Origin: a virus
Strand: one strand, 5' to 3'
Length of the DNA: 46,741 bases
IMG/VR virus record: IMGVR_UViG_3300048838_001586
Span: 1-46,741 of that record
The notes beneath the pieces are model-generated. The model saw only the letters and a program-made list of their open reading frames with translations. It was not told the origin of the DNA and ran no database searches. Positions 3,232-27,538 of this stretch are shown here, one piece after another. A program made the position numbers and the translations under genes. The first letter of the stretch is position 1, and every line of letters begins with the position of its first letter.

Positions 3232-3888
3232 TCAGCGCCCGCGCCTCCCCACGAATCGCACCGCGTAGACGCGGAAGGTGTCGCTGCCAGACTCGCGCCA
3301 GAGGCGGAAGGTGGCGACCTGGCCGCCGCTCCACGGCGCCGCGCTGGTGATCGGCAGCGTGAGGATCGCCGTGCACCCGCTGGTCGCCGGCATGACCAGC
3401 GTCGCCGTCGCGTTGTCGATGGCGGTCGCGTCGATTACGGCGTCGCCGTTGATGAGGAAGTCGAAGTCCACCACGGTACTCGTGGTCGTCGCCTCTTCGG
3501 TGGATCGGCAAAGCAGTTCGACGGACTCCATCGATGCGGCGACGATCCAGTCCGGCAGCCAGAGGGTCGTCCAGGCCATGTACCCGGTGCCGTCCTCGCC
3601 CGAGGCCCACTCGATGCAGGGCCCGATCTCGTACTCGCTGGCGGAGTTGGGCGCGGTCGTCGCGGTGAGGACCTCGCCGCCGGCCAGGAAGGAAGCGAGC
3701 GGCAGGTCGACGTGGAAGGTGCTGTCGGCAATCTCAAAGTCGCCGACCACCTCGGCGTGGATGTACTTGCCGGCCCACACCTTCGGCTCGACGGGCGTGT
3801 CCTGGGCGTGCACTTGCGAAAACGCCACGACGGCCAGTGCCACAACCGCCGCTGCCATTCGGATGAGAGCGTACTTGCGTTCGTTCAA
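3232..3888 (-). CDS. Exported protein of unknown function in the head module
   Basis: I do not recognise this 218-residue protein. The best start is the TTG at 3888, with AAAGGAG seven bases upstream. It opens a classical Sec signal peptide: Arg/Lys-rich start, hydrophobic run AAAVVALAVVAFS, and a probable signal peptidase site after VHA. The mature part is beta-rich with many Thr/Ala/Ser residues and four Cys, as in a small secreted or surface domain. A signal peptide between terminase and gpW is odd, because virion proteins assemble in the cytoplasm. An ATG-started version at 3858 would shorten the signal. Confidence 0.7.
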   Translation of the reverse strand: MNERKYALIRMAAAVVALAVVAFSQVHAQDTPVEPKVWAGKYIHAEVVGDFEIADSTFHVDLPLASFLAGGEVLTATTAPNSASEYEIGPCIEWASGEDGTGYMAWTTLWLPDWIVAASMESVELLCRSTEEATTTSTVVDFDFLINGDAVIDATAIDNATATLVMPATSGCTAILTLPITSAAPWSGGQVATFRLWRESGSDTFRVYAVRFVGRRGR

Positions 3889-19199: not shown

Positions 19200-19534
19200 C
19201 AGCGCTCCGTCTCCATCTCCTCGATCTCGCGCTGCAGCCGTGTCAGCGTCTCCCGCCTTGTCTGCGCCCCGGCCTCGAGCTCCGCCGTAGTCCGATGCGG
19301 CAGGAATACCTCGTCGAACGAACGGGCCCCGAGATTCCGACAGAACTGGTAGATCCGCCGCGCTACCGCGCGCGCCTCTGCCCGGTCCCGGTACCCGATC
19401 CCATCCATCCCGCACGCGATGTGCTCCTGGCCATCCCAGAATTCGAGGCGGTACGACTCCGGCGTCTCCCGCGGCGTCCCCCGCTCCACAATCCAAGCCT
19501 TCGGCTTAGGCCCAAACATCGGCTTCTTCTTCAC
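19199..19534 (-). CDS. Hypothetical early protein
   Basis: A 111-residue protein: a beta-rich first half (AWIVERGTPRETPESYRLEF) with a helix YRDRAEARAVARRIYQFCRN, then a C-terminal coiled coil (ETLTRLQREIEEMETER). It starts at GTG 19534, overlapping the Gp37/Gp68 gene stop as GTGA, with GGAG eight bases upstream. Unknown. Confidence 0.65.
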   Translation of the reverse strand: MKKKPMFGPKPKAWIVERGTPRETPESYRLEFWDGQEHIACGMDGIGYRDRAEARAVARRIYQFCRNLGARSFDEVFLPHRTTAELEAGAQTRRETLTRLQREIEEMETER

Positions 19535-20511
19535 AATTCCAACTCCGGCCACTCGTCCCACGTCCGCCCGTCCAACACGCGCCCCGCCGTGTGCTTTCCA
19601 ACGCGCGCCATTTCAGCGCCGTCAAGGAACCGATGCATGGCGTCGTGATTGATCCCGATACAACTCAGCTGCTCGACCGGGATATACCCACCCCACTGCT
19701 TGAAGTAGAACGGCACGCGGGCCTCGTTGCACTCGTCGCGCAAATCCCGCGCCCACTGGGGATGCATCGGTCGCGCCCCGGGTCCCGACTCACCGCCCAC
19801 GATCACGCCGTCGATACCTGATCCGCGCTGCCCGTTGGGCGGATTGAACTCGTGCGATCCGCACCAGTAATTGGTGCGCCCGCATGCCGGGCACGTCTCT
19901 TGCCACGGGTCGGGGAAATATCCGCGACAGCCGGAGCACTGCCAGGCGATGTGCATCCAGCCCCGCAGGTCCACCGGCCCCAGCAGCGGCTCCGCACTGA
20001 CAATCCGCCGCGCCGCCGGCGTCGCCAGCAGGAGCGGAATCCGCGCATCCGCGCTCGCCTGGTCCTCCACGGAGACGCCAAGGATCACGTTGCGGAACAT
20101 CTCCGCCGTCTTGTCCGCCTGGCCGAACGACTCCATGTAGGCGCGCATTCTCTCCGGCCGCTTGGTCAGCACGATGAATTCATGCCGCCGCGCGCGATAC
20201 ATCACCGAGAGCACCCGCGCAATAAACTCCAGCGGCACGGCCTCGTGGAACAGATCGCTCATCGAATCCACGAACACCCGCCGCGGCCGCTTCCAGCGCA
20301 GGGGAATCTCCAGCCGCTCCGGCCAGATCCGGACCTCACCGAACGACGTGTGGTAACACTCGGGCATCGGTTTGCCGGCGAGGTGGCCCTTATGCCGGCG
20401 CTCGTGCGTGCGCTCTGCGAAGCAGTTCCGACAGCCCTCCGAGACCTTGGTGCACCCCGTAGTGGGGTTCCACGTCTCCCCACCCTCCAGCCACTCAATT
20501 GCGCTCGGCAT
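19531..20511 (-). CDS. Phage Gp37/Gp68 family protein (DUF5131), radical-SAM-like
   Basis: A 326-residue protein. WNPTTGCTKVSEGCRNCFAE carries the three-Cys C-x6-C-x2-C signature of the Gp37/Gp68 family, which may hold an iron-sulphur cluster. VFVDSMSDLFHEAVP, LTKRPERM, GVSVEDQ, GVIVGGESGPGARPM and PFYFKQWGG are the other family blocks. Between them is an extra zinc ribbon (CSGCRG...CPACGR, about 190-215). The family is widespread in phages; its reaction is not established as far as I know. AAGGAG lies seven bases before ATG 20511. Confidence 0.9.
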   Translation of the reverse strand: MPSAIEWLEGGETWNPTTGCTKVSEGCRNCFAERTHERRHKGHLAGKPMPECYHTSFGEVRIWPERLEIPLRWKRPRRVFVDSMSDLFHEAVPLEFIARVLSVMYRARRHEFIVLTKRPERMRAYMESFGQADKTAEMFRNVILGVSVEDQASADARIPLLLATPAARRIVSAEPLLGPVDLRGWMHIAWQCSGCRGYFPDPWQETCPACGRTNYWCGSHEFNPPNGQRGSGIDGVIVGGESGPGARPMHPQWARDLRDECNEARVPFYFKQWGGYIPVEQLSCIGINHDAMHRFLDGAEMARVGKHTAGRVLDGRTWDEWPELEL

Positions 20512-20800
20512 GCGGGTTCTCCTTGCGGTTACGTGTCTCGGTCCAGATCCGGACGGCTTCGCGGGCCTCGACGGGCACGGCGCCGCGGCGGATCGCTAGG
20601 CCGCGCATGAACGGCGTCAGATCGTAGTGCGCGACGAGTGCGTGATCCTGAAACCACGCCCGCTTTAGCCCCATCGCCGCCGCGAACTGGTGCAGCTCCA
20701 CGACGGTGTCGGCGAACAGGTGGCAGGCCTGTCCATACGGCCAGCGCCGCGTCTTTGGGTACGACCGGAGGGAATCCACGTAGACGCTCATGGGGTACAT
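20495..20800 (-). CDS. DUF4031-type protein
   Basis: A 101-residue protein with the DUF4031 pattern: VYVDSLR, then CHLFADTVVELHQFAAAMGL, WFQDH, HYDLTPFMRGLAIRRGAVPV. This family occurs in phages and mobile DNA, with no proven role. The ATG at 20800 follows AAAGGAG closely; the ATG at 20791 is the alternative. It overlaps the Gp37/Gp68 gene by 17 bases. It is the first gene after the 421-bp structured spacer. Confidence 0.82.
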   Translation of the reverse strand: MYPMSVYVDSLRSYPKTRRWPYGQACHLFADTVVELHQFAAAMGLKRAWFQDHALVAHYDLTPFMRGLAIRRGAVPVEAREAVRIWTETRNRKENPHAERN

Positions 20801-21221
20801 GATCTCCTTTTCGCGGCCTACTCTCTCTTCACGCCCTCCGGTTGGCGGGCGCCGAAGGAGACGGGCGAGCGTCAATCTCGCCCGCTCCCTTCGTCGATGG
20901 GGCGACCAAACCCCGGAGCGAATACCCGTCTCTCCGGGCCGCTACACCACTTGCTCTCGCCTGGCAGGTGTCGCCTCGCTCGGAGAATTCCACTCCGGCC
21001 CCCTCAACTTCGTCTCCGGTCTCCAAGTAGGAAACCGCGCGTGAGGTCGCGGGCATCCAGCCATCTCACCACTCAAGATAGGGCAGGTGTCGCCCTTACC
21101 GGTCTCTCCCGGCCGTCACGCCGCGTATTTCCCCAAGGTTATGGGCACCGCTCGACGCTTCGGGTAGCCTTTCCTGTAACCCATCGGGTTACACCGTATC
21201 CTCGTCTCCCGCGCCCTCTGC
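20801..21221 (-). ncRNA. Candidate structured RNA in a 421-bp gene-free spacer
   Basis: No convincing gene lies here, although all neighbouring genes overlap or nearly touch. Read in the operon direction it contains many hairpins: TGTAACCC-gat-GGGTTACA (21175-21193), CCCGGAG...CTCCGGG (20913-20940 region), CGGAG...CTCCG (20979-20997 region), CCGCG...CGCGG (about 21035-21053), and a two-part stem CGAAGG...GGGCGAG-attgacg-CTCGCCC...CCTTCG (about 20853-20893). The 13-mer GGCGACACCTGCC occurs twice, 119 bp apart (20963-20975 and 21082-21094). This is consistent with a stable RNA or a long leader. The strand is inferred from the operon. Confidence 0.45.
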
Positions 21222-21404
21222 CTACGCCTCTCCGTGCACGTCCGCGGCCGTTGTTCGGTAGCGCTTTCCTTCTACTTCGAAATACATCCACCGGCGTCCC
21301 TTCTTCACGAGCGTCATGGGGCGGTCGTAGCGGCCCCGCCAGAACACGAGGTAGACCTGCCCTACCTCCAGGTCCTGTTTGATGCGATCACTCGCGGACG
21401 GCAT
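21222..21404 (-). CDS. Small hypothetical protein
   Basis: A 60-residue, beta-rich protein (LEVGQVYLVFWRGRYDRPMT, then KKGRRWMYFEVEGKRYRTT), similar in feel to SH3-like small domains. The ATG at 21404 has GGAG eight bases upstream; the GTG at 21410 is too close to it. It is the last gene before the long structured spacer. Confidence 0.65.
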   Translation of the reverse strand: MPSASDRIKQDLEVGQVYLVFWRGRYDRPMTLVKKGRRWMYFEVEGKRYRTTAADVHGEA

Positions 21405-21792
21405 CCGCACGGCTCCTCTCGTGCGCTTCCAGAAAGGCCAGCGCGTCGTCGGCCAGTTCCCACGTGCGGACGAATCCCCACCATCCGTCCTGGTACTCCA
21501 TCAGGAACCGCAGCATGCGCGGCAGCCGGTCGTGGCTGCGGAGCGATTCCAGGAAGGCCTCCTGCGCGTCGTGGCCGGCGTGCTTGAGCGCATCGGCCGC
21601 GCGCTCGTACGTGGTCGGGTCGGTCATGGCAGTCTCCTTGCGTCCTTCGTCCCAGGCGGCCAGGCACTGCAGCCGGAGCGCCTCGGGCATGTAATCCACC
21701 ACGGCGTAGAGCGTGTACGGGTTGGCGTCGCAGGCCCTCGCCCGCCGCCCCCATTCCCGCGCGCCACGGACGTCGTCGGGCGGAATCACCAT
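21388..21792 (-). CDS. Rmf-like N-terminal domain protein
   Basis: A 134-residue protein. Residues 10-55 (GAREWGRRARACDANPY..., then AWDEGRKE) look like ribosome modulation factor: small, basic, with the NPY and final W-x-x-G-R. Rmf-like units also occur as small phage proteins. The second half is helical and acidic. ATG 21792 overlaps the upstream stop. A second ATG at 21627 (MTDPTTYERA) has GGAG six bases upstream, so the helical half may also be made alone. A ribosome target is inferred only. Confidence 0.6.
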   Translation of the reverse strand: MVIPPDDVRGAREWGRRARACDANPYTLYAVVDYMPEALRLQCLAAWDEGRKETAMTDPTTYERAADALKHAGHDAQEAFLESLRSHDRLPRMLRFLMEYQDGWWGFVRTWELADDALAFLEAHERSRADAVRE

Positions 21793-23675: not shown

Positions 23676-24194
23676 TCAGGTCGTGTCGTCCGTGTCGTTC
23701 GGCGCGTCCGGTCTCATGGTTTCGGGTTCGGGTATTTCAACGCGGGGCAGGCTGTCGGCCCACGCGAGGATTTCGGAGGCGATCCAGAGATATGTCGGCG
23801 CGGCAGCGCTGCCCTCGGCGTCGCCGATCCGCAGCGGCGCGGGAAAGCGCCCAGCTCGCATGCGGCGGTGGATGGTGCTGCGCGAGACGGGCACGAGGGC
23901 GCGCAACTGGTGGATGTCGAGCAGCCGCTCCAGCCGGGAGGTATCCGGCGCCGCGGGTGGTTGGATTCCTTCGCCACGCGGCACGCTGTGGATCCAGGCG
24001 GCGATTTCCGCCGGACACCACACCCATGCCCCGCCGATCCGCCGCGGGCGCGGGAAGCCGCGCTCCAGCATCCAGCGGTTGAGGGTGCGGGCGCCGGTCG
24101 GCACGTATTCGAGCACGTCGGACCGTCGCAGCAGCCGACGCGCCGCCAGGGATGGCGGCAATGGCCGTATGTGGCGCGCAGGGCAGGCAGGCAT
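23676..24194 (-). CDS. Double AlpA/excisionase-like DNA-binding protein
   Basis: A 172-residue protein with two winged-helix units of the AlpA type: residues about 20-70 (LLRRSDVLEYVPTGARTLNR, then GFPRPRRIGGAWVW) and 88-150 (LLDIHQLRALVPVSRSTIHR, then GRFPAPLRIGD). Each has the typical R-x-x-x-x-G-x-F-P turn. ATG 24194 shares a base with the cro-like stop, making it the second gene of the early operon, where lambda has cII. It could be the excision factor, an activator or both. Confidence 0.8.
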   Translation of the reverse strand: MPACPARHIRPLPPSLAARRLLRRSDVLEYVPTGARTLNRWMLERGFPRPRRIGGAWVWCPAEIAAWIHSVPRGEGIQPPAAPDTSRLERLLDIHQLRALVPVSRSTIHRRMRAGRFPAPLRIGDAEGSAAAPTYLWIASEILAWADSLPRVEIPEPETMRPDAPNDTDDTT

Positions 24195-24427
24195 CAGACC
24201 GCCACCTCTGACTGTGGTGCGTCTTGCGCGGGATCCGGTCGGAAATACAGAGGTGGCTTCCGCAACGCTTGAGCAATGACGTCGATGGTTTCGAAGGCGG
24301 GGCGACGAGTTACATCGTTTACCAGGTCCGAAATCGTAGGTTGGCTAAGGCCCGTCATTGCAGCGAGTTGGACTTGGTTGATGCCCTTCGCTTTCATGGC
24401 GTTTTTTATCTTCTGTCCGAGAGTCAC
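24194..24427 (-). CDS. Cro-like repressor (XRE HTH)
   Basis: A 77-residue HTH protein: KIKNAMKAKGINQVQLAAMT, then GLSQPTISDLVNDVTRRP, a textbook Cro/CI-type helix-turn-helix, followed by a short C-terminal helix. I chose GTG 24427 because GAGGTGA lies five bases upstream; an earlier GTG at 24436 overlaps that site. It is divergent from the repressor gene and sits directly behind the strong promoter at 24446-24474. Confidence 0.87.
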   Translation of the reverse strand: MTLGQKIKNAMKAKGINQVQLAAMTGLSQPTISDLVNDVTRRPAFETIDVIAQALRKPPLYFRPDPAQDAPQSEVAV

Positions 24428-24445
24428 ATTAATCACCTCGGACGG

Positions 24446-27422: not shown

Positions 27423-27538
27423 AACAACGCCCCCCACGCCTCTCAACGATGCGCACCAGGGGGGTTTCTCTTTGCCCATCCGCCGCTTCACGGTGAAGCG
27501 GAAGGCGTCACCTCCACCGGGCCTGCCCGGAGGATCAC
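27423..27538 (+). ncRNA. Structured leader of the Abi gene (possible abiF-type RNA)
   Basis: About 115 bases from the predicted transcript start to the GTG. Three hairpins can be drawn: CCCCCC...GGGGGG followed by TTTCTCTTT (27430-27473), terminator-like; CCGCTTCA-cgg-TGAAGCGG (27483-27501), an eight-base perfect stem; and CCGGGC-ct-GCCCGG (27517-27530), which covers part of the GGAGG ribosome site. Rfam has an RNA motif named for abiF genes; whether this is a member is untested. Confidence 0.4.

Follow-up and report, generated by a model that had tools for sequence, protein, structure and literature searches.

A repeated pseudoknotted RNA element from a phage early-operon spacer is widespread in phages and prophages and may control transcription termination

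Results

A gene-free spacer in the early operon

The window analysed here, 46,741 nucleotides in length, is the entire IMG/VR virus record IMGVR_UViG_3300048838_001586. By our own reading of its open reading frames (ORFs), the early region runs in the series S24-type repressor, Cro-like protein, AlpA-type regulator, spacer, DUF4031 and DUF5131:

19531–20511, minus strand: DUF5131 gene (PF07505; "Gp37-68" in the preliminary description), next gene downstream of DUF4031
20495–20790, minus strand: DUF4031 gene (PF13223), downstream of the spacer
20791–21221, minus strand: gene-free spacer with the elements described below
21222–21410, minus strand: 62-aa ORF bordering the spacer on the other side from DUF4031
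23676–24194, minus strand: AlpA-type regulator (PF05930)
24194–24436, minus strand: Cro-like HTH protein
About 24.5 kb, plus strand: ORF containing the S24-type repressor

Elsewhere in the window, an abiF RNA (RF03085, E = 4.2e−6; 27430–27465, plus strand) lies directly upstream of an Abi_2 gene (PF07751; 27539–28306, plus strand), and together these are an AbiF-type defence module of the window's temperate phage.

ORF and codon-position GC checks of 20791–21221 revealed nothing that is likely to encode a protein: on the sense strand the two longest ORFs were 75 and 50 aa, and their GC pattern was non-coding. A protein-coding spacer was therefore ruled out, in agreement with the preliminary description. 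That description had called the operon gap-free, which is not fully so, as other gaps of approximately 150–200 bp occur in it (by rough gene calls). Inspection of the sequence located all of the hairpins it had named, and also its repeated 13-mer, GGCGACACCTGCC, at 20963–20975 and 21082–21094, with the spacing of 119 bp confirmed. The hairpins include a CCCGGAG/CTCCGGG stem and the following:

21175–21193, sense-strand hairpin: 8-bp stem with a 3-nt loop
About 20850–20896, minus strand: GGGCGAG/CTCGCCC nested in CGAAGG/CCTTCG, a strong hairpin between copy C (see below) and the DUF4031 start

The folding stability of the spacer was only mildly unusual (z = −2.3 for the sense and −2.8 for the antisense strand), so the hairpins alone prove little, and single-sequence folding was not decisive. 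A nucleotide search of phage and plasmid collections with the spacer gave nothing useful; searches via the adjacent proteins returned distant relatives only, with no related spacer except at one locus (L022). Moderate z-scores would suit an explanation in which the repeats arose by chance and the hairpins are functionless, ordinary GC-rich ones. However, conservation across phages with covariation, set out below, already refutes this reading, to which we give practically no weight.

The 13-mer is the 5′ half of an RNA element of about 60 nt

On the sense strand each 13-mer forms a mini-hairpin, GGC-GACACCU-GCC, whose loop is able to pair with a downstream GUGGUG, and the repeat proved to be the 5′ half of an RNA motif of approximately 60 nt. 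This motif consists, in order, of the S1 hairpin (GGC/GCC), a pseudoknot (S2) in which CACC of the S1 loop is paired with a downstream GGUG, the sequence YGAC, and the P3 hairpin with a GARAGA loop; the conserved 3′ side of the unit reads AGUGGUGUGAC-stem-GAGAGA-stem. One full and two partial copies are present in the window:

20919–20980, minus strand: copy C, full element (covariance model R1: 52.5 bits, E = 1.5e−13)
20963–20975, minus strand: S1 of copy C, GGC (20975–20973) with GCC (20965–20963), loop GACACCU
20944–20971, minus strand: S2 pseudoknot of copy C, ACACC (20971–20967) with GGUGU (20948–20944)
20924–20939, minus strand: P3 of copy C, CCCG-GAGAGA-CGGG plus one G-U pair
21067–21095, minus strand: copy B, partial, S1 and S2 box GGGCGACACCTGCCC...GTGGTG (R1 5′-half match at 21067–21089, 13.7 bits)
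21097–21118, minus strand: copy A, partial, 3′ half GUGAC-G-GCCGG-GAGAGA-CCGGU (R1 match at 21093–21130, 20.8 bits)

Copy C is itself among the 58 sequences of the model, so that its score arises partly by construction, and the calibration was short, which makes the E-values approximate. It carries UAGC in place of the usual UGAC. No P3 is recognisable in copy B and no 5′ half in copy A. A further weak R1 match at 3234–3290 of the window falls inside a coding region and is probably due to chance.

The proposal that the spacer holds a structured RNA is thus upheld, with the correction that the actual unit is a repeated one of about 60 nt and not a single RNA of 421 nt. As for the hairpins previously drawn, CCCGGAG/CTCCGGG could form in place of the conserved CCCG-GAGAGA-CGGG hairpin, and the nested stem at 20850–20896 is outside the motif. 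Within 20914–20938 (minus strand), P3 of copy C and the CCCGGAG/CUCCGGG stem exclude one another, and a two-state switch is possible.

Covariation supports all three helices

Alignment A1 contained 58 copies and was not fitted to the structure. Its covariation score was 0.248, versus 0.079 after shuffling (0 of 500 shuffles as high); it should be noted that the members are related and that the shuffles disregard this kinship. When the pairing registers were slid along A1 the score reached at most 0.075. In P3 all four core pairs vary on both sides.

Because the search pattern fixed most S2 pairs, the test of S2 was limited to the pair which had been left free. Among 86 copies with the CGA box this pair was C-G in 81 and A-U, A-U, U-A, U-A and U-G in the others, with no mismatches. 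Neighbouring elements in arrays, which were not selected on S2, have CACA/UGUG as S2, and ACGCC/GGCGU modules were seen in arrays by inspection. An independent set was obtained by searching for the P3 hairpin (TGACAGCNGGGAAAGACCNGC) with the upstream side unconstrained, which gave 109 GAAAGA hairpin sites. At 34 of these, the four bases before UGAC had an exact complement in the loop of an upstream hairpin (stem of at least 3 bp), versus 12.1 in permuted data (maximum of 20 in 100 permutations), and the excess peaked exactly at the nucleotides before UGAC. S1 had weak support in A1, with two constant pairs and one variable pair; in the leaders of a related form of the element (class A, below) its fourth pair was C-G in 29, G-C in 18 and G-U in 2, that is, paired in 49 of 49.

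Covariation thus supports all three helices, and we regard the existence and structure of the element as well supported, with the qualification that the seeds were chosen by pattern and the sequences are not independent. The covariation in homologues that the preliminary description had looked for was found for the pseudoknot built from the 13-mer and for the GARAGA hairpin, not for the hairpins it had drawn.

Distribution and novelty

A first pattern, GGCGACACCTGCC-N-GTGGTG, was run on viral contigs and matched many unrelated IMG/VR phages, in which the length and sequence of the linker between the boxes vary freely. A second pattern gave 100 stretches, and the first set of matches comprised 81 distinct copies. 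In total we found some 255 distinct elements, often in tandem, spread over about 200 sequences (197 loci) that are mainly viral contigs. A descriptor of this kind, combining (Y)GAC, a stem of 4 bp or longer and a GARAG[AU]-type loop, matched random sequence 0.15 times per 93 kb. Pattern matches inside genes (for example L088, L365 and L371) were considered chance because either the GCGA box or P3 was missing from them.

Named phages with the element include P1 (between trnI and ban), mEp390, Cronobacter CS01, Pokken, Alexa, a Planktothrix phage, Klebsiella P7641, Medea1, Marinobacter PS3, BUCT709, Phaeobacter MD18 (among tRNAs) and the Dibbiviruses (inside 1.5-kb gaps), and it also occurs on plasmids of Microbulbifer, Sedimenticola and Agarilytica. 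In bacterial genomes a strict pattern gave 27 stretches, of which about 19 were confirmed by R1 at high score, from gamma-, beta- and alphaproteobacteria, cyanobacteria and a Gemmatimonadetes MAG.

The preliminary description had recognised no known class of RNA here, and an Rfam 15 scan likewise gave no family match to the element at the curated gathering score. Searching the open literature for the motif sequence strings found no relevant paper; an earlier description elsewhere is possible. The element is a previously uncatalogued phage RNA element, and it is widespread, with carriers that number hundreds of phages and prophages.

Elements next to tRNAs and at gene ends

All 66 tRNAs within 300 nt of an element were on the same strand as that element (197 loci, 255 elements). 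The elements are RNA-level, being co-directional with transcription, and a DNA-level mobile repeat was rejected since the co-directionality with neighbouring tRNAs held in every case. Fourteen elements stop 3–12 nt upstream of a tRNA.

Such spacing before tRNA 5′ ends, together with the tandem copies, the compact pseudoknot and the occurrence in tRNA clusters, could be explained by a processing element or a small self-cleaving ribozyme which separates tRNAs and mRNAs in phage transcripts. There is a phage precedent for ribozymes at tRNAs in the HDV-like theta ribozymes of gut phages, which cleave no further than 5 nt from the 3′ end of a tRNA (PMC10879173). These too are small pseudoknotted phage RNAs adjoining tRNAs, but they have the HDV double pseudoknot and lie at tRNA 3′ ends, whereas our element has one pseudoknot plus a hairpin and lies 5′ of tRNAs (PMC10879173). 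Rfam searches gave no match of the element to the HDV family or to any other ribozyme family, and membership of the theta ribozymes was ruled out by this and by the position before tRNA 5′ ends. Moreover, tRNA 5′ ends are already made by RNase P, and at many loci the element lacks a neighbouring tRNA and is followed instead by a terminator ahead of a gene. A role in processing is accordingly quite unlikely.

Some arrays consist of 3–4 copies, such as those that immediately follow a putative major capsid gene. In a freshwater phage group (L163, L155 and L111), arrays of 2–4 elements begin right after the stop codon of such a gene. A few copies, in Marinobacter phage PS3 and phage Alexa, come last in a block of genes, on its 3′ side, with convergent genes opposite, a position for which antitermination makes less sense. 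The 3–4-copy arrays after the capsid gene in freshwater phages, the 3′-end copies in PS3 and Alexa and the tRNA-like packing would fit a stable structure at mRNA ends which acts as a barrier to nucleases, or else a small RNA or decoy that is released and works in trans. We consider this unlikely, as it leaves unexplained both the terminators just before downstream start codons, reported below, and the near-invariant YGAC and GARAGA across otherwise divergent phages. In type III toxin-antitoxin systems, tandem pseudoknot RNA repeats stand immediately upstream of a toxN, cptN or tenpN gene; the neighbouring genes listed for about 20 named loci included no annotated toxin.

We also noted a T content of 35–46% at positions +4 to +8 after P3 (255 distinct elements), which recalls hairpin-stabilised pause sites or weak terminators.

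Promoters, terminators and leaders

A scan for the class A form, the related lambdoid form found in enteric prophages, gave at least 120 stretches. A strong intrinsic terminator was present on the same strand within 600 nt in 19 of 43 usable distinct stretches, compared with 11 of 253 random stretches (4%), which are mostly coding and not other leaders; the corresponding controls were 2 of 47 upstream and 4 of 43 antisense. The terminator was often 4–17 nt before a start codon, and the downstream genes were diverse. Terminator enrichment at the first-set loci was mild (21% versus 13%) and equally high on the opposite strand, with 13 of 192 versus 14 of 711 in the first 50 nt.

Gene calls on the contigs were mechanical. 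In several cases the lambdoid form has a promoter-like site before it and, after it, a strong intrinsic terminator which directly precedes a gene. The cassette of the H10407 prophage runs from a promoter-like site through the element, tRNA-Arg and a terminator to a gene, while the BUCT709 series consists of a promoter-like site, elements, GCCCGGGCGCCCCGGGC-ATTTTTTT, further elements and genes. In mEp390 and the E. coli 21AR0133 prophage the element is placed after the repressor gene and ahead of the ParB operon, which is the nutL/putL position in lambdoid phages; the promoter scan found a site in mEp390 and none on that strand in 21AR0133. Leaders that work by antitermination or attenuation have this order of element, terminator and gene. 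A regulated leader was one option raised in the preliminary description, and it is partly supported: the order of promoter, element and terminator was seen in relatives, but in the window a scan of 18–24 kb, around the element, gave neither a promoter-like site nor a useful terminator-like one.

The conserved core, the tandem copies and the position before terminators would also suit a ligand-responsive, riboswitch-like attenuator for phage early genes. This appears improbable: the downstream genes are diverse, several copies precede tRNAs, and the S2 and S1 sequences vary freely, unlike those of most aptamers.

Other RNAs were observed in the same leaders. P1 (L219, 2338–2560), mEp390 (L221, 2080–2320), BUCT709 (L357, 2020–2170) and L363 (2990–3170) have in common a larger leader RNA, GGCACAU...GGUAGCCGGAAUGUGCAAG, which lies upstream of the class A element and resembles a second conserved domain. 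In lambdoid leaders a long hairpin, ACAACAUGA.AGCGCA...GGAGUGCGCU.CCAGUUGU, is found after or alongside the elements (L221, 2520–2620; L357, 2175–2260; L228, 2080–2160) and is a possible RNase III site. On the Microbulbifer plasmid (L225, 2496–2839) the element is followed directly by isrK (RF01394) and C4 antisense RNA (RF01695), in a P4/P1-like immunity leader. Both are prophage immunity leaders tied to transcription termination; they differ from our element in sequence and structure and are its neighbour at this one locus, not its homologue.

Discussion

The element often has a promoter or tRNA on one side and, on the other, a transcription terminator that stands immediately ahead of a gene, so that continued transcription by RNA polymerase is probably under its control. 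The closest known system is the putRNA (putL/putR) of phage HK022, in which RNA-only antitermination was established. According to the published account, it is an RNA-only antiterminator with a recently solved structure which binds the β′ zinc-binding domain of RNA polymerase and needs no protein factors to suppress pausing and termination; putL, of about 70 nt, has a 5-bp hairpin (3–7/15–19) with loop positions 10–14 paired to 30–34 and a second stem following at once (PMC9378689). In our recovery of HK022 putL from NC_002166, 28 of 28 quoted residues agreed. Set against this account, our element is alike in approximate size, the hairpin loop which pairs downstream, the second stem which follows at once, the phage origin and the A just before the loop helix, and some of its relatives also have the early-operon leader position (PMC9378689). 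It differs in that stem II of put is different and has no YGAC or GARAGA; tandem arrays, tRNA clusters and a wide host range belong to the new element and are not described for put in the part of this source that was consulted (PMC9378689). R1 gave a best E of 0.5 on 25.5–33 kb of HK022, where there was no YGAC-GARAGA hairpin, and homology to put by sequence was thereby ruled out. As there is no sequence similarity, we do not file the element as put; we propose that it works like put.

We find a put-like RNA element which controls termination in phage operons to be the best explanation, and rate this function as somewhat probable. The nascent RNA, folded into an H-type pseudoknot, YGAC and a short GARAGA-type hairpin, would act in cis on transcription elongation. 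In its simplest form it would be a put-like antiterminator, with which polymerase gets through terminators and through long regions without translation, tRNA clusters among them. For the window this would mean that the element may keep early-operon transcription (DUF4031, DUF5131 and beyond) going across the untranslated gap of 431 nt.

Even if its function is a different one, a covarying and abundant phage RNA which is missing from Rfam deserves annotation. If the element works as put does, RNA-only antitermination would be far more widespread, for the element is present in P1 before ban, in enteric prophages before leader terminators, in phage tRNA clusters, and in proteobacterial and cyanobacterial phages or genomes; the long gene-free leaders of many phages would then be explained, and many natural variants would be at hand for structure-function work. 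It is conceivable, if less probable than the put-like function itself, that there exists a large and so far uncatalogued superfamily of phage nascent-RNA elements (pseudoknot, YGAC and GARAGA hairpin) which reprogrammes RNA polymerase in several bacterial phyla, and that RNA-based antitermination is common in phages and no mere oddity of HK022 and the phages nearest to it.
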